DNA of 6,294 bases, taken from contig JAFXSE010000069.1 in the NCBI GenBank assembly GCA_017525855.1, positions 1 to 6,294 of the forward strand, in the 5' to 3' direction. Position numbers and translations under genes: made by a program. Positions 1 through 6,294 of the stretch are shown here, piece by piece. The notes under the pieces are model-generated. The model did no database searches and had not been told where the DNA came from. It worked only from the letters and a program-made list of their open reading frames with translations. Each line of letters begins with the position of its first letter. Position 1 is the first letter of the stretch. The DNA is from Bacilli bacterium. Its GTDB lineage: Bacteria > Bacillota > Bacilli > RF39 > UBA660.

Positions 1-900
1 ACCAAGTAATAACAAAGTAAAGGCAGAAACCAATATGCCTTCAAGCAAATATCCAGATTTATCCTTTAATTTATTATAAATACTAGGAAACACAATATTA
101 GAAAATATTGATGGAATATTTGAAAATGCAACCAAAACACTGAAAATTGTTGCCATAATTCCTTGACTTATACCATTTTCTAATTCATATTGAATAAATA
201 GTTTTGCTTGGTTTTGACCAATGTCAACTATTCCAGTTTCTAATCCATATAATAAAGGTAGTAATATTAATAAAATTGACCATACTTTTTTGTGACTCTT
301 CTTTTCTACTTTTTCCTTAATGGAAACATCAACATTTTCAGAAACATCAAATAGATTAAATGATAAAACAAAGGAAATTAAAGTAGAAAAAATTGCAATA
401 TACATAGGTAGATAAGCATTAATATTAAATAATGGACCAACAACCAATCCAGCTATAGTGCCAACAATTGCATATAACATACAAGCTGTGTTAAAAATTT
501 TAATAAAACTATTTTCGCGATTAGCATAAACTAAATTTCTTCGTAATTCTACAACTACCATAGCTTTAAACATAAATGAAACTTCATATAAAATTTCACC
601 AATAGCAAGACCAAATAATGTTGTACTAAATGTCAATAGTAATGCAGAAAATATAAAAATAAAGTTTCCTAATCTAACAGAAAATGTATTTCCAATCTTT
701 TTTATAACCTTAAGTAAGGGAACTTGCAATAATATACTTGTAGTGATAGAAATTGTTGTAAGTAAGGAAAACTCGGATGCAGATAATCCTTTTACTGTTG
801 TCAAAAACAATGTGTTTATAATATTAAAAAATAATAATCCACCTGATAAACTATAATATACAGGATATATTTTTATAAATCTATTTATTTTTTTAGCCAT
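1..900 (-). CDS. MFS-type membrane transporter (C-terminus beyond window)
   Basis: Reading leftward from an ATG at 900-898, the frame stays open for 300 codons to the window edge, so the 3' end is missing. The protein starts MAKKINRFIKIYPVYYSLSG and is strongly hydrophobic. Likely membrane segments lie near residues 14-34, 44-62, 78-106, 136-158, 162-183 and 206-226, with a further one around 248-272. A charged loop (about 186-205, rich in E, K and S) separates the sixth and earlier segments from the rest, as expected for the central loop of a 12-helix major facilitator. Family assignment is from this pattern, not from a signature motif, and the substrate is unknown. A modest GGAAA ribosome site (909-913) lies 8 nt before the start. 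It is transcribed divergently from the acetyltransferase operon, which suggests a linked role such as export. Confidence 0.78.
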   Translation of the reverse strand, partial: MAKKINRFIKIYPVYYSLSGGLLFFNIINTLFLTTVKGLSASEFSLLTTISITTSILLQVPLLKVIKKIGNTFSVRLGNFIFIFSALLLTFSTTLFGLAIGEILYEVSFMFKAMVVVELRRNLVYANRENSFIKIFNTACMLYAIVGTIAGLVVGPLFNINAYLPMYIAIFSTLISFVLSFNLFDVSENVDVSIKEKVEKKSHKKVWSILLILLPLLYGLETGIVDIGQNQAKLFIQYELENGISQGIMATIFSVLVAFSNIPSIFSNIVFPSIYNKLKDKSGYLLEGILVSAFTLLLLG

Positions 901-941
901 TTATATAATTTCCGATCTTTAATAATAATTAATTTAAACTC

Positions 942-970
942 ATTATATAAGATATTCAAAAATATTGCAA
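942..970 (-). promoter_or_regulatory. Sigma-A-type promoter for the MFS transporter
   Basis: On the minus strand, -35 TTGCAA (970-965) is followed by a 17-nt spacer and a perfect -10 TATAAT (947-942). Transcription would start near 935, giving a leader of about 35 nt before the MFS start codon. The -35 box is self-complementary and is also the -35 of the rightward promoter. Confidence 0.6.
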
Positions 971-993
971 TAACTATGACACTATGATAAAAT
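965..993 (+). promoter_or_regulatory. Extended -10 promoter for the acetyltransferase operon
   Basis: On the plus strand, -35 TTGCAA (965-970), a 17-nt spacer and -10 TAAAAT (988-993) preceded by TGA (985-987, an extended -10 TG element) form a good sigma-A promoter. The start would fall near 1000, about 28 nt before the TTG start codon. It shares its -35 hexamer with the leftward MFS promoter. Confidence 0.62.
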
Positions 994-1008
994 TCATATG
1001 TATATGAA
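993..1008 (+). promoter_or_regulatory. 16-bp dyad at the operon start site, candidate operator
   Basis: TTCATAT (993-999) and ATATGAA (1002-1008) are perfect inverted copies around a 2-bp centre. The dyad begins at the last base of the -10 box and covers the predicted +1, where a bound dimeric repressor would block the rightward promoter. No regulator gene is visible in the window. In DNA this AT-rich a 7-bp dyad can arise by chance, so this is a candidate only. Confidence 0.35.
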
Positions 1009-1013
1009 ATAAT

Positions 1014-1018
1014 AGGAG
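1014..1018 (+). promoter_or_regulatory. Ribosome binding site fixing a TTG start
   Basis: AGGAG lies 9 nt before the TTG at 1028. The next in-frame methionine codon is residue 25 (ATG at 1100) and has no comparable site, and residues 1-24 match the N-terminal part expected of the family, so TTG is the preferred start. Confidence 0.7.
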
Positions 1019-1027
1019 AAAGGTAAA

Positions 1028-1780
1028 TTGTTAAGTAAAATCACAAGCAAGGAAGATTTGAAAAGAATAGAACCATTATTTACAGACATTAGATTTTATA
1101 TGGGAAAAAGTGTTTTAGAAGGGATAATGGGAGAAGTATATACTGATAATGCTTTGAGTCCCAAATTTGCAATTCTGCTTGTAAAATCATTTTGTTTTAT
1201 AAGTGGTATTATAGAAAAAGAAGAACTAAGAGAAATAATTAACAATAATTTTAAAAATAAAAGTATAATACCAAGTGATGAAATATGCGTGCAAATTGAA
1301 GAAATATATGGAGAAAGAATAGTAAAAACACAAAGGTACTCAATAAAGAAGAACCCTTCCTTTAATATATCAAAACTTAAAAAAATGACAAATAATTTAT
1401 CCCAAGAATACAAAATTGAAAAAATAAAAGATGATTTAATAGATAAAGTTAGAGAAGAAGGGTTTAATATTACAACAGAAAACTATGAAAAAAATGGCAT
1501 AGGATTTTGTTGTATATACAATAATGAAATAATAGGAAGTGCTTCTTCAAATATATTTTATAAAGATGGAATAGAAGTTAATGTTAGAGTAAAAGAAAAA
1601 TACAGAAGAAAAGGTATAGCAACAGCAATGTGTGCTAACTTAATATTAGAATGTATTAATCAAAACAAAAAGATTAGCTGGGATGCAAAAGATATGAATT
1701 CAGTTAAGCTTGCAGAAAAATTGGGATTTGAATATGACTCACCTTATAATAGGTATAAATTTAAGAAAAGTCAGGAGTAG
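1028..1780 (+). CDS. GNAT family N-acetyltransferase, ZmaR-like (GNAT_acetran type)
   Basis: A 250-aa cytosolic protein predicted to transfer an acetyl group from acetyl-CoA to an amine. The N-terminal half (about 15-60) has the pattern of the GNAT_acetran family: GIMGEVYTD followed by a serine/proline turn and SFCFISG, which in relatives precedes the catalytic domain. The C-terminal GNAT fold (about 130-250) shows the acetyl-CoA-binding loop RRKGIA at residues 193-198 (R/Q-x-x-G-x-A) and the closing NSVKLAEKLGF at 224-234. Length is normal for the family, whose named member ZmaR acetylates the antibiotic zwittermicin A. The substrate here is unknown. It is the first gene of a three-gene operon: its last codons contain the AGGAG used by the next gene, which starts 3 nt after its stop, so translation is probably coupled. 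Confidence 0.85.
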   Translation: MLSKITSKEDLKRIEPLFTDIRFYMGKSVLEGIMGEVYTDNALSPKFAILLVKSFCFISGIIEKEELREIINNNFKNKSIIPSDEICVQIEEIYGERIVKTQRYSIKKNPSFNISKLKKMTNNLSQEYKIEKIKDDLIDKVREEGFNITTENYEKNGIGFCCIYNNEIIGSASSNIFYKDGIEVNVRVKEKYRRKGIATAMCANLILECINQNKKISWDAKDMNSVKLAEKLGFEYDSPYNRYKFKKSQE

Positions 1781-1783
1781 AAA

Positions 1784-2605
1784 ATGGAGAATATAATTGA
1801 TAATTTAGATAGTATTATAAAATATTCAGGAGAAAATGTTTCTGCAATAATAAAAGATATAAACAGTCAAGAATACATATATAAATTTAATAGCGATACA
1901 AAGCTTATATCTGCATCGACAATAAAAGTACCCATAATGCTAGCAATATTAGAAGAGGTAAGACAAGGAAATATTAGTCTAGATGCTGAACTTTTAGTTA
2001 AAAGTGAAGATGTAACATATAATACAAAAGTATTTGAAAATGGAGAAAAGCGTTATTCAATTTATGAGCTAATTAATTGGATGATTATTAATTCTGATAA
2101 TACAGCTACAAATGTATTAATTAGAAAAATAGGTATGGACAAAATAAATAGCTATATTTTAAACGAGTTAAAAGTAAAATCAACGAGTTTACAAAGATAT
2201 ATGTTGGATTTTGAAGCAGTAAAAGAGGGATTAAATAATTACATGAGTCAAGAAGATATGCTCATAATATTTACTAAGCTTTTTAATAAAAAAATTTTAA
2301 ATGATGATTTATGTGAAAAAGCAGTTAATATACTTTATAATCAGCGTGGACAGTATAGAATTATGAGATATATTTATGAACCAGTAAAATTTGCACATAA
2401 AGGAGGAGCATTAGACTATTTAGGTCATGATGTTGGTGTTATGAATATTAATGATAAATTATACTATGTTGGAATTTCTGTATATGATTCTAAAGATAAA
2501 GAAGGAAATAACAGGCTGTTTGGAAATTTAGGTAGAGAAATATATGAGTATTTAAAAAATATAAAAAAGCAAGGAGTTCCTGTTTATAAAAATAAAGGAT
2601 ATTAG
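1784..2605 (+). CDS. Leaderless class A beta-lactamase-fold serine hydrolase
   Basis: A 273-aa member of the penicillin-recognising serine hydrolase group (beta-lactamase2 type). The three hallmark motifs are in order: S45-T-I-K48 (nucleophile serine and lysine), S104-D-N106, and K206-G-G208 in place of KTG. The region matching the omega loop (about 138-160) reads RYMLDFEA then KEGLNNYMS and lacks a clear E-x-x-L-N, so efficient penicillin deacylation is doubtful; E144 or E148 are the only candidates for the general base. There is no signal peptide: the protein opens MENIIDNLDSIIKYSGENVS and has about the length of a mature enzyme, so it should act in the cytosol on an amide, ester or peptide substrate rather than on periplasmic-type or exported targets. 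AGGAG at 1773-1777, inside the preceding gene, gives a 6-nt spacing to the ATG. Confidence 0.83.
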   Translation: MENIIDNLDSIIKYSGENVSAIIKDINSQEYIYKFNSDTKLISASTIKVPIMLAILEEVRQGNISLDAELLVKSEDVTYNTKVFENGEKRYSIYELINWMIINSDNTATNVLIRKIGMDKINSYILNELKVKSTSLQRYMLDFEAVKEGLNNYMSQEDMLIIFTKLFNKKILNDDLCEKAVNILYNQRGQYRIMRYIYEPVKFAHKGGALDYLGHDVGVMNINDKLYYVGISVYDSKDKEGNNRLFGNLGREIYEYLKNIKKQGVPVYKNKGY

Positions 2606-2635
2606 TAATAAAGAGTACAAGTTATAGGAGAAAAT

Positions 2636-3133
2636 ATGAGTAAAGGAATTATAATAGCCACTTTTGCAGCTTGTGGTAAAAGCATTTTAGGGAAAAAATA
2701 TAAAAATGTGTTAGATTTAGAATCTAGTTATTATAAGTATAAAATTGCTAATGATAATTTAACAGTAGAAGAAAGAAAAGGAACTAAAAAAGAATTAAAT
2801 ACAAACTGGCCTCAAAATTATTATGATGAAATTCTTAAAGCTATAGATAAGTATGATATAGTTTTAGTTCAATTAAAACCTGAACATTTTGATTACTTTG
2901 ATAAAAGTAATATTAAATATTCAATAGCATATCCAAATATTGACAATTGGAATGTAATTGAAAAAAGATGCAAAGAAAGAGGCAATAATAATGCTTTTAT
3001 AACTAGACTAAAAGAAGTTTTTAAACCTTATTATAAAGATGCAATACAAAGAAACTATGAAAAATTATATATACTTAATGAAAATGAAACATTAGAAGAT
3101 ATTTTAAAAGAAAATAATGTAAAATTAATTTAA
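2636..3133 (+). CDS. Small P-loop NTPase, kinase-like
   Basis: A 165-aa protein with a degenerate Walker A near its N-terminus (IIATFAACGKS, residues 6-16; G14-K15-S16 after a hydrophobic strand). The usual first glycine of GxxxxGK[ST] is replaced, as in several small nucleotide-kinase-like families. D27-L-E-S-S31 sits where kinases of this fold place the acceptor-binding aspartate. IVLVQL (about 75-80) is a likely second strand, and the basic stretch EKRCKERG followed by a helical region resembles the lid of small kinases. Role and substrate are not recognised; it may phosphorylate a small molecule or nucleotide, or be only an ATP-binding protein. AGGAG (2626-2630) is 5 nt before the ATG, and the gap from the hydrolase is 30 nt with no promoter, so it is the third gene of the operon. 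Confidence 0.62.
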   Translation: MSKGIIIATFAACGKSILGKKYKNVLDLESSYYKYKIANDNLTVEERKGTKKELNTNWPQNYYDEILKAIDKYDIVLVQLKPEHFDYFDKSNIKYSIAYPNIDNWNVIEKRCKERGNNNAFITRLKEVFKPYYKDAIQRNYEKLYILNENETLEDILKENNVKLI

Positions 3134-3135
3134 TA

Positions 3136-3174
3136 TATTTTAATCTATAGATTTGCAATGTATAGATTAAAATA
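3136..3174 (+). terminator. AT-rich hairpin after the three-gene operon, possible weak terminator
   Basis: A perfect 14-bp stem (3136-3149 with 3161-3174) encloses an 11-nt loop, starting 2 nt after the stop codon of the P-loop gene. The stem has only one G-C pair and no T-run follows, so it is a weak terminator at best or an RNA 3'-end stabiliser. Read-through into the downstream insertion sequence is therefore likely. Confidence 0.4.
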
Positions 3175-3203
3175 ATAGCAAATTTTGTAAATTAAATACG
3201 TTA

Positions 3204-3224
3204 GTGTAAAATTTATGTAGGCAA
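3204..3224 (+). repeat. Left terminal inverted repeat of the ISLre2 element
   Basis: Begins GTGT and ends ATGTAGGCAA. It matches the reverse complement of 4898-4918 at 17 of 21 positions, with the inner 10 bases and outer 4 bases identical. Confidence 0.75.
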
Positions 3225-3264
3225 AAAAATAAAAAATTTATCTAAATATTTTTTTTATTGAATA

Positions 3265-3293
3265 TTGAAAAAACATGGTTAATCCGATACAAT
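3265..3293 (+). promoter_or_regulatory. Promoter of the ISLre2 transposase
   Basis: -35 TTGAAA (3265-3270), an exact 17-nt spacer, and -10 TACAAT (3288-3293). Transcription would start near 3300, about 32 nt before the transposase ATG. The spacer contains one arm of the hairpin that covers the transposase start. Confidence 0.6.
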
Positions 3294-3337
3294 GTTAATT
3301 GCAAAAAAACAAATAGTAAAGGATAATAACCATGTTT
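3271..3337 (+). promoter_or_regulatory. Inverted repeat that can hide the transposase ribosome site and start codon
   Basis: AAACATGGTTA (3271-3281) pairs perfectly with TAACCATGTTT (3327-3337), and ATCC (3282-3285) pairs with GGAT (3321-3324) across a 2-nt bulge, giving 15 base pairs. The right arm contains the ATG (3332-3334) and the GGAT of the AAAGGAT ribosome site (3318-3324). The left arm lies wholly upstream of the element's predicted start site, so only transcripts entering from outside would carry both arms. The read-through-protection role is inferred by analogy with IS10 and IS50. Confidence 0.65.
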
Positions 3338-4807
3338 GAAGAAATTATAACAAGTAATGAAATAAAATTCAATGATTTAGAGAAAAAAGTTTATAAATTT
3401 GTATGTTTTTTTGGATGTTTAATAATAAAGTTAATGTTAGAATCATACGACAAGAAATTAATGAAAGTTCGAGACAGTAAGAAATATAGACATAAAGGAT
3501 TAAGAACAACCCATGTAAATACAGTAATGGGAGAAATAAAATTTAAAAGAGCAATGTATGAAGTAAAAGAAGAAGGAATTACAAAAACAGTATACTTGTT
3601 AGATGAAAAATTAAAAATAAGTGGAAGTGGAAAAGTATCAAGCAATTTAGTAGAAAAAGTAGTTGAAGTAGTACCAATAACAGATTCATATAGAAAAAGT
3701 GAAACAGTAATAGAAGAAACAACAAACACAACCATAAGCCATGAAAAAATAAGAAATATAATAGTAGATGTTGGAGAAAAAATAACAAAAAAAGAAAAAG
3801 AGGAAAGCAAATTATTAGATAAAGGACAATTGATAGCAGGGCTTAAAGAAGTGACTGCATTATTTGAAGAAGTAGATGGAATATGGATAAATTTACAAGG
3901 AAAAGACAGGAAAGAAAAACTAGAAAAAAATAAAAAGAAAGCAGAAAAAGAAAACAAAGAATTCAATCCAAAAATGAAGATAAAAACAGAGCTGAAATTG
4001 CATGTTATGTATGAAGGATGGAAAAAGGATGATCCAAGACATAGCTTAATAAATAAGCAATATATAGCAGGAATAATGAAACCAAAAGAAATATCAAAAT
4101 TAAGAGATGCCAGAGTATATCAGCAATATGATGAAAGCAAAATAAAAATAATAGTAACAAATGGAGACGGAGCACAATGGACAAAAGGAACAACAGCAAA
4201 AGGAGGATTTTATCAAAAAGATGAATATCATATAATGCAAGAAATAGTAAGAGATGTACCAAAAGAATATCAAAACATAATAAAGGAACTAGTAAATACA
4301 AAGGAATATAAAAAAATACCAAAAGCAATAGAGGGAATCAAATATGAAGTAGGAGGAGAATATGAAGCAATAAAAAAATTAAAAAAGTTAGAAAAGTATT
4401 TAAGTAAAGATTTAGGAAGCTACCAAGATGTACTAGAAGTACCAGAAGCCCCAGAAGGAATAGAATATAGAACAATGGGAACACAAGAAAGTCAAATATT
4501 TAGTAAATTAAAGAAGGTATTTTGTAGTGGAAGAAAAGCATTTAGTAAAAAAGGAGCAAATGCATTAGCAAAGATTTGTGTATTAAGTGAAAAGATAAAA
4601 ATAGATGAATTAGAAGAAGCAATACCAATAGATACAAGTGTAGAAGATTGGATAAAAGAAATTGAAAAACAAGTAAGAGCAACAAAGAAATATCATTGTG
4701 CAAAAGAAAAGGAAAAAGCAAGCTTATATACAGGAGTAAAAACAGGAGGAATAGAATATAAGTTTATGAAAGAAATAGCAAAAATAAAAAGCTTTAGTGA
4801 AATATAG
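3332..4807 (+). CDS. ISLre2-family transposase (UPF0236 group)
   Basis: A 491-aa DDE-type transposase that would cut and rejoin the ends of its own element. Recognisable family blocks are the N-terminal YRHKGLRTTHVNTVMGEIKF region (about 52-71, basic then GEIxFKR), FEEVDGIWINLQGK around D182, and VTNGDGAQW around D279, followed by DEYHIMQEI; D182 and D279 are the likely first two acidic catalytic residues. The third (glutamate) was not assigned. The residue 195-215 region is a highly charged lysine/glutamate stretch. The reading frame is intact with no stop or frameshift and the length is in the family range, so the enzyme may be active. Its start is overlapped by a long inverted repeat that probably limits translation from read-through RNA. 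The gene is purine-rich on the coding strand, more so than its neighbours. Confidence 0.9.
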   Translation: MFEEIITSNEIKFNDLEKKVYKFVCFFGCLIIKLMLESYDKKLMKVRDSKKYRHKGLRTTHVNTVMGEIKFKRAMYEVKEEGITKTVYLLDEKLKISGSGKVSSNLVEKVVEVVPITDSYRKSETVIEETTNTTISHEKIRNIIVDVGEKITKKEKEESKLLDKGQLIAGLKEVTALFEEVDGIWINLQGKDRKEKLEKNKKKAEKENKEFNPKMKIKTELKLHVMYEGWKKDDPRHSLINKQYIAGIMKPKEISKLRDARVYQQYDESKIKIIVTNGDGAQWTKGTTAKGGFYQKDEYHIMQEIVRDVPKEYQNIIKELVNTKEYKKIPKAIEGIKYEVGGEYEAIKKLKKLEKYLSKDLGSYQDVLEVPEAPEGIEYRTMGTQESQIFSKLKKVFCSGRKAFSKKGANALAKICVLSEKIKIDELEEAIPIDTSVEDWIKEIEKQVRATKKYHCAKEKEKASLYTGVKTGGIEYKFMKEIAKIKSFSEI

Positions 4808-4897
4808 TTAAATGACTATATTTATTAAGAGAACCAAAATAAAATAAATAGTTGATAGCAAAGGCATTTGAGGATTAAAAATAAAAAGATAAAAAAA

Positions 4898-4918
4898 TTG
4901 CCTACATTTACTTGACAC
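4898..4918 (-). repeat. Right terminal inverted repeat of the ISLre2 element, with outward TTGACA
   Basis: Reads TTGCCTACAT inward and ends ACTTGACAC on the plus strand; it is the 17/21 inverted partner of 3204-3224. A perfect -35 consensus TTGACA lies at 4912-4917 and points out of the element to the right. The nearest TATAAT (4938-4943) is 20 nt away, longer than the optimum. Confidence 0.75.
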
Positions 4919-4919
4919 A

Positions 4920-4988
4920 TACATTTTTTATACTTTTTATAATAACCCCTTTTAAATCTAATAAATCTTTGATACAATTACTATGCAC
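4920..4988 (-). pseudogene. 5' fragment of an ISL3-family transposase gene
   Basis: From a GTG at 4988-4986 the minus strand encodes 23 residues, (V/M)HSN then CIKDLLDLKGVIIKSIKNV, which resemble the N-terminus of clostridial ISL3-family transposases (I-x-D-L-L-x-L-x-G-V-I-I). The start is supported by AAGGAGGT (5004-4997) 8 nt upstream and by an in-frame stop just before the GTG. At codon 24 the sequence enters the ISLre2 terminal repeat and reaches a stop after VK. The zinc-finger and DDE domains, more than 90 percent of the gene, are missing, so no enzyme can be made. Identification rests on a short peptide. Confidence 0.6.
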
Positions 4989-5053
4989 TTATCAATACCT
5001 CCTTAAATGTTTTGTCACAATTACATTTTATCAGGTATTTTAGATAAGTGCAT
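4983..5053 (-). promoter_or_regulatory. Leader inverted repeat covering the ISL3 transposase start
   Basis: On the minus strand ATGCACTTATC (5053-5043) pairs perfectly with GATAAGTGCAT (4993-4983), and AATACCT (5039-5033) with AGGTATT (5000-4994), giving 18 base pairs interrupted by a 3-nt bulge. A small inner stem (ACATTT/AAATGT, 5028-5023 with 5010-5005) lies inside. The 3' arm covers the end of the Shine-Dalgarno sequence and the GTG start. The 5' arm is in the promoter spacer and so is absent from RNA made by the element's own promoter. On the plus strand the same structure followed by a T-rich run (5053-5061) could also act as a terminator. Confidence 0.65.
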
Positions 5054-5065
5054 TATTTTTTACAA
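5037..5065 (-). promoter_or_regulatory. Promoter of the ISL3-like transposase remnant
   Basis: On the minus strand -35 TTGTAA (5065-5060), a 17-nt spacer and -10 TAAAAT (5042-5037). The start would be near 5030, about 42 nt before the GTG and downstream of the outer hairpin arm. It would now drive only the short remnant peptide and possibly RNA antisense to the ISLre2 element. Confidence 0.5.
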
Positions 5066-5118
5066 AAAAAATGCTGAAGCTTATTTAATCACTCCAACAT
5101 TTATTATAGAACCAAAAG

Positions 5119-5144
5119 AGATTAGGGTATAAAAGCCCTAATCT
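5119..5144 (+). terminator. Stem-loop terminator upstream of the toxin relic
   Basis: AGATTAGGG (5119-5127) pairs perfectly with CCCTAATCT (5136-5144) around an 8-nt loop, extendable by G-T and A-T pairs at the base, with an imperfect T-rich tail (TTCACTTT). In ToxIN and AbiQ loci a terminator separates the antitoxin RNA repeats from the toxin gene, limiting toxin expression. This hairpin has exactly that position relative to the toxin relic, 60 nt before its start, although the repeats are gone. Confidence 0.72.
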
Positions 5145-5204
5145 TTCACTTTAAATTTAAAATATATTGAATATTGTTATATAATATAAACAATTGGAAT
5201 AATA

Positions 5205-5558
5205 ATGATTTTGAAATTAAAAATAGTAAGAGTTGATTCAGAATATTGTGATTATTTAAGAAAATTTGATAATAAGGTATCTTATAATAAAGATGGAAAA
5301 GAACTAAGACCATTTATAGGTATATTATTTAATATTGAAAATATAGAATATTTTGCACAATTGTCAAGCCCAAAACAAAAACATGTTAAAATGAAAAATA
5401 TGGTGGATTTCCTAAAAATAAAAAATGGTGAACTCGAAGCAGTTAACTTTAACATTTCAGGAACAGAAATATCAAAAATTATTAATAGAACAATTAAATT
5501 ATTTAAATGCAAACTATAAGCAAATTAGAAATAAGTCATATAATTTATATAGTATGCA
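5205..5558 (+). pseudogene. Broken ToxN/AbiQ-type type III toxin (endoribonuclease) gene
   Basis: Intact members are endoribonucleases of about 170 aa held inactive by a repeated RNA antitoxin. Here an ATG at 5205 with a weak GGAA site gives 83 family-like residues: DSEYCDYLRKFDNKV (11-25), RPFIGILFNIENIEYFAQL (35-53) and S54-S-P-K57, equivalent to the TSPK active-site segment, then KIKNGELEAVNFN. The frame then ends at 5519. Family sequence resumes in another frame from about 5470 as KYQKLLIEQLNYLNANY and NKSYNLYS, the C-terminal helices, and breaks off near 5558, where ABC transporter sequence begins. From comparison with ToxN, about 20 residues between VNFN and KYQKLL are missing, so an internal deletion with frameshift fits better than a single-base error. 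The 104-aa product would lack the C-terminal half and is presumably inactive. Confidence 0.78.
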
Positions 5559-6294
5559 AGCAATTATATTAGTTGGGTTGTTACTGGAATGCCAGATTAT
5601 AATAATCAAAAAGTTGCATTTGAAAGAGTACTAGATTACTTAGAAAGTAGTAATCAAGAAGACTTAGAAAAGGGAGAACCTTTAGACAAAATAGAAAGTA
5701 TTGAATTTAGAAATATTGATTTTGCATACAATACTGAAAATGTAATTAAAGACTTTTCATTATCAATAAATTCAAATGATAAAGTAGCATTAGTAGGAAA
5801 AACAGGCTCAGGAAAGTCGACAATTATAAATTTACTATGCAGATTTTATGATGTAACAAAAGGTGAAATATTAGTTAATGGTAAAAATATAAATACGTAT
5901 AAATTTAAAGACTTACGTAGTAGAATAGGCTATGTAATGCAAGAAAACACTATATTTGATGGTACTGTATTAGAGAACATTAATTATGCTAATTTAAGTT
6001 TAAAAGAAGATACTATAATAAATGCTTGTAAAAAAATTGGACTACATGAACATATAATGAAATTACCAGATGGATATAAAACTACTTTGAAAAATGATGG
6101 AGACATATTGTCAAGTGGAGAAAAACAATTACTATGTTTTGCAAGGATAATGATAACAAATCCAGACATAATCCTTTTAGATGAGGTTACATCATCACTT
6201 AGCTATGAAACTGAAATGAAAATTCAATCTGCAATTAAAGAAGTAACTAAAAATAAAATGTGTATTATTGTAGCACATAGATTATCTACAATAA
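5559..6294 (+). pseudogene. ABC exporter ATPase domain, lacking its membrane domain (3' end beyond window)
   Basis: The open frame begins after a TAG at 5550-5552; ATG 5589 is its first methionine, with no good ribosome site. It starts inside the linker between the membrane and ATPase halves of a fused exporter (NNQKVAFERVLDYLES). The ATPase domain then has Walker A GKTGSGKST (5796-5822), the Q-loop (VMQE), signature LSSGEKQ (6108-6128), Walker B IILLDEVTSS and the H-loop VAHRLST just before the window edge. The D-loop reads SSLS rather than the usual S-A/S-L-D. In intact relatives about 300 residues with six membrane helices precede this point; here broken toxin sequence takes their place. 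The ATPase residues are intact, so decay is recent, or the domain is expressed alone, which is less likely. The exported substrate cannot be told. Confidence 0.75.

Follow-up and report, generated by a model that had tools for sequence, protein, structure and literature searches.

A promoter-threaded hairpin over the transposase start site of ISL3 and other insertion sequences of low-GC Bacillota, predicted to silence read-through RNA

Can the leader of an insertion sequence distinguish RNA begun at the transposase promoter from RNA that enters from outside the element, and how widely is such a leader used? The question is raised by a stretch of 6,294 nucleotides from a Bacilli bacterium (GTDB RF39, UBA660; contig JAFXSE010000069.1, positions 1 to 6,294; here called the window), in which an ISLre2-family element is adjoined, on its right and on the opposite strand, by the remnant of an ISL3-family element. 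An earlier note on this DNA had proposed that in both elements one arm of an inverted repeat fills the promoter spacer and the other covers the transposase start codon, that native RNA thereby escapes while read-through RNA is silenced, and that this is a general, convergent rule for clostridial insertion sequences. In our analysis that interpretation is partly supported: the mechanism is very likely, and the claim of generality is half right.

The ISLre2 element has inverted ends (3191-3224 and 4898-4931) that are 74% complementary, and its transposase (3332-4807, + strand) matches PF06782 with an E value of 1.5e-38. The ISL3 remnant begins with the tip GGTTCTATAATAA (5113-5101, - strand), part of the terminal repeat; as GGTTCTATAATAAATGTTGG, the tip is common to relatives with full-length transposases, as expected of a left-end terminal inverted repeat. 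With an intact relative as tblastn query, codons 1-23 were matched at 4988-4920 (E 3e-5), and beyond them the window gave only matches with E values above 3. These codons are 65% identical to the intact ISL3 transposase; the DDE_Tnp_ISL3 domain is absent from the remnant, and the ISL3 relatives score above the PF01610 cut-off. The remnant is cut off by the ISLre2 element, at a joint that is placed approximately. Because only codons 1-23 are left, the ISL3 element in the window is a fossil, whose leader serves no transposase here now and can be interpreted only through its relatives. No Rfam family reached the gathering threshold anywhere in the window.

The arms of the ISL3 remnant were found on the strand and over the start codon that the earlier note had named. 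They form 11 perfect pairs (5053-5043 with 4993-4983) followed by 7 more (5039-5033 with 5000-4994), 18 in all, and the hairpin folds at -24.8 kcal/mol with a z score of -6.0, a value that none of 200 shuffles equalled. The perfect stem on its own gave p = 0.010. Pairing with the start region was scored by a duplex test (-100..-28 with -18..+10, 200 dinucleotide shuffles), which gave p = 0.005, the lowest value that 200 shuffles allow. The Shine-Dalgarno sequence AGGAGG is present at 5003-4998 as described, but only its first half is unpaired; the second AGG forms part of the 7-bp stem. The adjoining ISLre2 leader (locus L192) folds at -18.3 kcal/mol with a z score of -6.2 and a duplex p of 0.005, and so has the geometry ascribed to it. 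Coordinates are collected in Table 1.

Table 1. Features of the two insertion sequences in the window.
Feature	Position	Strand	Basis
ISLre2-family element	3191..4931	+	inverted-repeat search; ends approximate
ISLre2 transposase promoter TTGAAA-17-TACAAT, outer arm AAACATGGTTA (3271-3281) in spacer	3265..3293	+	sequence, promoter scan, fold
ISLre2 inner arm TAACCATGTTT, spanning the ATG start codon (3332)	3327..3337	+	fold
ISL3-family left-end remnant, tip to transposase codon 23	4920..5113	-	relatives' leaders and tblastn
ISL3 inner arm GATAAGTGCAT, holding start codon GTG (4988-4986)	4983..4993	-	fold, covariation
ISL3 second inner segment AGGTATT	4994..5000	-	fold
ISL3 Shine-Dalgarno AGGAGG, half in stem	4998..5003	-	sequence, fold
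ISL3 conserved -10 TAAAAT with TGA ahead of it (extended -10)	5025..5030	-	alignment columns 44-49; TGn count
ISL3 second outer segment AATACCT (anti-Shine-Dalgarno), ending 2 nt ahead of conserved -10	5033..5039	-	fold, alignment
Promoter of the earlier note, TTGTAA-17-TAAAAT, consensus match	5037..5065	-	promoter scan; -10 poorly conserved
ISL3 outer arm ATGCACTTATC (anti-start), first six bases at -35 position	5043..5053	-	fold, covariation, start-codon tracking
Terminator-like hairpin from element tip, ATGTTGGAG (5100-5092) with CTTCAGCAT (5079-5071), then T run	5064..5102	-	sequence

Relatives of the ISL3 leader were drawn from several sources. A search with leader DNA gave matches in 37 of 193 genomes, many weak ones being chance, and a PF01610 search in the window's order gave matches in 34 of 287 genomes, some of them ISLre2 ORFs. 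Contigs of named genomes held 30 ISL3 loci, including loci from Clostridia, Lachnospiraceae, Caldanaerobacter and Phascolarctobacterium; viral contigs held one ISL3 and no ISLre2 locus, and a plasmid search using leader DNA returned no match. The resulting set of 39 leaders comprises the window, 28 of the 31 named-genome or viral loci (all except L102, L112 and L114) and 10 loci from the leader and PF01610 searches. Leader-search loci were dropped if the copy ended ahead of the start codon, was a duplicate or a chance match, or had decayed (L022, L029, L035), and L063 alone was used from the PF01610 loci L059-L084. Removal of redundancy (less than 85% alike) left 28 leaders, which were aligned without reference to structure. 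Four full-length ISL3 transposases (393-396 aa; L055-L058) begin with the same hairpin, with further cases among the printed relatives. Absence from intact relatives, the observation that the earlier note had said would speak against it, is thus not what was found; the hairpin is present in them and covaries.

The alignment bears on where the promoter lies. The earlier note was right to place the outer arm inside a promoter, upstream of the probable RNA start, but the conserved -10 is not the one it chose. That hexamer occupies columns 32-37, which carry 0.03-1.05 bits, whereas the TAAAAT 12 nt downstream (5030-5025) occupies columns 44-49, with 0.8-2.0 bits each. With its -10 columns so poorly conserved, the upstream promoter is a possible but less likely native one. 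A 17-nt spacer separates the conserved -10 from columns 21-26, the -35 position, which is occupied by anti-start bases (G in 26, C in 24 and A in 25 of 28 leaders). With the -10 at 5030-5025, therefore, the entire outer strand spans the -35 position and the 17-nt spacer; it ends at the conserved -10-like hexamer, and the putative native start lies downstream. In 42 leaders of four families, the -35 is weak in 28, with only 2-3 of 6 matches to TTGACA, and TGn stands ahead of the -10 in 21, against a background TG frequency of 0.054. In our reading, an extended -10 releases the upstream half of the promoter for use as a pairing arm. In at least 90% of alignment rows of the ISL3 leaders, codon 2 opens with C, which would fit the G of the anti-start motif.

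The same placement recurs beyond ISL3. Among leaders with a duplex p≤0.05, a -10 matching at 5/6 positions or better starts no more than 5 nt from the end of the outer arm in 42/45, compared with 4.2 in shuffles, a slightly generous count in that the ISLre2 leader L185 enters it through a small, differently placed stem. By family this is 19/20 for ISL3, 12/14 for ISLre2, as the earlier note's comparison of the two elements implied, 9/9 for IS200 and 2/2 for IS256. In a separate sample of the phylum (299 genomes), a -10 lay no more than 8 nt from where the arm ends in 12/34 ISLre2 leaders (2.2 expected) and 4/15 ISL3 leaders (1.4 expected) with p≤0.05. Most significant leaders of this sample thus lack a clear -10 next to the arm, and those that have one are mostly of low GC content, a split noticed post hoc. 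Six higher-GC ISLre2 leaders (L227, L230, L236, L240, L248 and L250) show, by eye, a second small hairpin between the arms; they have no -10 (5/6 or better) within 8 nt of the outer arm, and their start site may be organised differently.

We consider it very likely that the leader serves to silence read-through transcripts of a transposase gene. RNA that enters from an external promoter would contain both arms and fold into the 18-pair hairpin over the Shine-Dalgarno sequence and start codon, and in the folded state it should not be translated; a share of it would already have been halted at the terminator formed with the element tip. Native RNA, beginning about 7 nt past the conserved -10, would start after the entire outer strand, could not form the hairpin and would be translated. 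The outer strand would occupy the promoter from the -35 position down to the -10, at the price of a poor -35 and, often, with an extended -10 (TGn). The benefit would presumably be that no burst of transposase follows insertion into a transcribed gene.

Computed accessibility agrees with this scheme. In the window, exposing the Shine-Dalgarno sequence through to the start codon takes 5.7 kcal/mol in native RNA and 18.9 kcal/mol in read-through RNA begun at 5110. In leaders with p≤0.05, the median costs for native and read-through RNA were 4.5 and 17.6 kcal/mol for ISL3, 5.1 and 14.4 for ISLre2, and 4.7 and 18.3 for IS200, the native starts behind these medians coming from a promoter picker that ignores the alignment and is off in some cases. 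Read-through RNA was dearer to open than native RNA in 20/20, 12/14 and 9/9 leaders, respectively. In the window the picker took the upstream -10 of the earlier note, and it likewise took upstream sites in L088, L089, L090, L091 and L104 (ISL3) and L189 (ISLre2); with these starts, and with the window as the exception, part of the arm would be included in native RNA, and the native RNAs of L189 and L091 would be no more open than read-through RNA.

The terminator constitutes a further layer. A terminator-like hairpin upstream of the outer arm was detected in 15/24 ISL3 leaders, the window included, where 0.9 would be expected; the same scan found one in 1/17 ISLre2, 0/18 IS200 and 0/8 IS256 leaders. 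In the window, the hairpin at 5064-5102 is the predicted first barrier to read-through, and a stricter terminator scan of the window did not list it.

These results bear on a different possibility, namely that the hairpin is present in all transcripts and constantly lowers transposase translation, with release by other means. A leader of that behaviour, in which the ribosome binding site is buried, is reported for ISPpu9 in the portion of the source available, with an antisense RNA as the proposed means (PMC8450116), and in the many higher-GC ISLre2 leaders that lack a recognisable -10 past the arm, transcription could start upstream. We nonetheless hold this to be improbable: nearly all leaders of the window's order with p≤0.05 have a -10 after the arm (the 42/45 above), and the terminators upstream of the outer arm in ISL3 leave scant room for a useful upstream start.

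Relatives of the ISL3 leader maintain the pairing through compensatory changes. In the 28 ISL3 leaders, 75.6% of cells in the alignment pair, compared with 61.0% after shuffling, and changes on both sides of a pair are found in 71 cells, compared with 29; neither value was reached in 500 shuffles. Both-sided change was seen at 13 of the 16 pairs tested (10.0 in shuffles; reached in 5/500), and sliding one arm by 1-3 columns lowered pairing to 33-49%. The perfect stem alone reached p≤0.05 in 19/28 leaders. Kinship among the leaders inflates these covariation and shuffle-based counts. The start codon itself is informative, as it may be GTG, ATG or TTG: its first base and the partner base form A-T in 11, G-C in 8 and T-A in 4 leaders, with a mismatch in 5 (L092, L103, L104, L106 and L113). 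The 23/28 matches compare with a mean of 10.3 when partners are re-dealt, and none of 20000 re-dealings reached 23. Three start codons, each with its matching partner, would be hard to obtain by relatedness alone. One of the mismatched loci, a truncated ISL3 copy at position 2001 of L106, has an ATG start facing CAC in the outer arm (stem p 0.44); another copy in the same genome, L090, combines GTG with CAC. L106 is perhaps a decaying copy.

Such covariation is difficult to reconcile with arms that act as DNA half-sites, at which a repressor or the transposase itself would bind over the promoter and start codon in autoregulation. Perfect inverted repeats over a core promoter do lie where a repressor would bind, but the sequence of the arms drifts while pairing is maintained, the partner base tracks the start codon, and in some elements the best stem moves to the Shine-Dalgarno sequence or the first codons. 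Most printed relatives, by contrast, show by eye almost no variation in the element tip, where the transposase is likely to bind. We have rejected the DNA-operator reading because arm sequence changes while pairing persists, and give half-sites very little credence.

How general the arrangement is was addressed with the duplex test in the window's order together with the named ISL3 loci. Loci were entered only if the match lay near the N terminus (23/30 for ISLre2, 11/30 for IS256, 24/30 for IS200, 22/30 for IS110 and 26/29 for IS4/IS5; L153 of IS200 and L311 had no start). Removal of redundant or short-upstream leaders left 24/39 for ISL3, 17/23 for ISLre2, 8/11 for IS256, 18/23 for IS200 and 30/32 for host genes; 14 IS110 and 23 IS4/IS5 leaders were scored. 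Starts were chosen by one rule, the best Shine-Dalgarno sequence, and are probably wrong in some loci (for example L183, L187, L190 and L239); those of the 39 ISL3 leaders were set by homology. Host controls required a Shine-Dalgarno score of at least 5, from which insertion-sequence leaders were exempt.

At p≤0.01, 18/24 ISL3 and 13/17 ISLre2 leaders were positive compared with 1/30 host genes, which bears out the predicted enrichment over shuffles; 6 ISL3 and 4 ISLre2 leaders missed this threshold. IS200 followed with 8/18 and IS256 with 1/8. No IS110 leader of the window's order was positive (0/14 at p≤0.01 and likewise at p≤0.05), and only 1/23 IS4/IS5 leaders was, so that a rule covering clostridial insertion sequences in general, as the earlier note had it, does not hold. 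The lone IS4/IS5 positive (L304; genome G114, contig 9) has p 0.005, an arm at -74..-54 and a TATAAT about 7 nt after the arm. In the phylum sample the corresponding counts were 25/46 for ISLre2, 12/21 for ISL3 and 1/36 for host genes; input was 29/30 loci plus 20 hand-picked places for ISLre2 and 24/30 loci for ISL3, and the 46 and 21 scored are those that remained, with no usable start in L261, L267, L268 and L275. That AT-rich leaders of kin merely happen to pair is scarcely credible, since the shuffle, slide and host-gene controls and the three start codons with matching partners contradict it, low GC content and the lift that shared ancestry gives to shuffle-based counts notwithstanding.

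Plasmid loci were examined for 5 of the 40 listed ISL3 matches and 3 of the 12 ISLre2 matches. All three ISLre2 loci, from Geobacillus/Parageobacillus, were positive, two of them sharing an identical printed leader. Two of the five ISL3 loci were positive (Leuconostoc IS1165 and Loigolactobacillus); Lactococcus and a cyanobacterium were negative, and Limosilactobacillus was weak (p 0.083). For L210 the rule-picked start gave p 0.78 and the annotated start was strongly positive, in a re-test made after the first result was known.

Does this distribution reflect convergence? The earlier note had called ISL3 and ISLre2 unrelated, which is too strong: the PF01610 model picks up ISLre2 transposase ORFs (G271:C8, E 4.9e-7, the best; G256:C7, E 8.6e-5, this one below the curated cut-off), a hint of what may be distant kinship. 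Convergence is better supported by IS200 than by ISL3 and ISLre2 together, because the IS200 transposase (Pfam name Y1_Tnp) is of another type, HUH/Y1. IS256 and ISLre2 are both placed in the Mutator superfamily in the available part of PMC3942029 and were therefore counted as one lineage. On balance we lean towards the view that low-GC Bacillota have converged on a design rule under which at least three lineages (ISL3, Mutator-like ISLre2/IS256 and HUH-type IS200) thread an anti-start arm through the core promoter to the -10, the -35 is given up for pairing with an extended -10 often substituting, and the promoter evolves together with the start codon and codon 2 as a unit. If this rule is true, the promoter also supplies the antisense half for the start site of the gene that it drives.

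The principle of such protection is known. In IS50/Tn5, of a different family from ISL3, read-through RNA yields little transposase. Davis, Simons and Kleckner reportedly found in 1985 that IS10/Tn10 is protected from external promoters; its outside transcripts are said to be poorly translated because of RNA structure, formed by an inverted repeat with only one arm present in native RNA. A two-layer arrangement is likewise reported for Tn10. The ISL3 leader resembles IS10/Tn10 in setting RNA structure against outside transcripts and differs in transposase family. Salmonella IS200 is reportedly the subject of Beuzon et al. (1999). According to the accessible part of one source, Salmonella IS200 has a stem-loop that terminates impinging transcripts and another that occludes the ribosome binding site (PMC3196728). 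The ISL3 leader of the window has an inverted repeat over Shine-Dalgarno sequence or start codon of the IS10/IS200 kind and, as in IS200, a terminator upstream of the ribosome-binding-site hairpin; it shares the two layers with IS200 and differs in transposase type.

The terminator layer is in print for ISL3. Naville and Gautheret (2010) describe, in the part of their paper available, 5' terminators upstream of Firmicutes ISL3 transposases that block expression in transcribed regions (PMC2965389), which corresponds to the window in both family and first layer; that part makes no mention of a start-site hairpin or of its place in the promoter. ISPpu9, of the IS110 family, is alike in that its transposase has a ribosome binding site hidden by RNA structure, but there the structure lies within the 5'-UTR of the native mRNA and antisense RNA is proposed to open it, as far as the available text goes (PMC8450116); its IS110 kin in the window's order were those without such an arm (0/14). 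Among the open-access titles and abstract openings listed, none deals with a hairpin at the start site of ISL3 or ISLre2 elements or with an arm in the promoter, which is weak evidence, most subscription papers lying outside that list, and the words 'hairpin' and 'read-through' are absent from the main text of an ISLre2-naming paper (PMC3942029). What is added here is the promoter-threaded variant, its covariation and its family limits.

This variant is widespread and not universal: frequent in ISL3, ISLre2 and IS200, present in a fraction of IS256 leaders, rare in IS4/IS5 and not found among IS110. The scattered cases of IS10 and IS200 thereby become a measurable pattern with family limits, through which one can ask why protection from neighbouring promoters is needed by certain insertion sequences only. 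As the arm marks both start codon and promoter, it also gives a lead, from sequence only, to native transposase starts and promoters.

The surroundings of the two elements were also annotated. To the right of the remnant, a type III toxin-antitoxin system is represented by the N-terminal part of its ToxN-type toxin (5205-5519, + strand; PF13958, E 2.4e-25, profile positions 1-82 of 159). Antitoxin repeats are expected upstream of a ToxN-type toxin; just upstream of this piece are a terminator hairpin (5119-5144) and the tip of the ISL3 element, and the operon looks broken. A promoter-like sequence, TTTAAA-16-TACAAT with TG (4951-4978, + strand), starts about 20 nt past the ISLre2 end. It is consistent with the preference of ISLre2 for insertion upstream of sigma-A promoters given in the available part of PMC3942029, and promoter-like sites are frequent by chance in this stretch (17 seen, 14.2 in shuffles). 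To the left of the ISLre2 element is a Beta-lactamase2 family gene (1784-2605, + strand; PF13354, E 1.7e-48), whose neighbours are a GNAT acetyltransferase gene (1028-1780; PF12746) and an ORF at 2636-3133 with no Pfam match.
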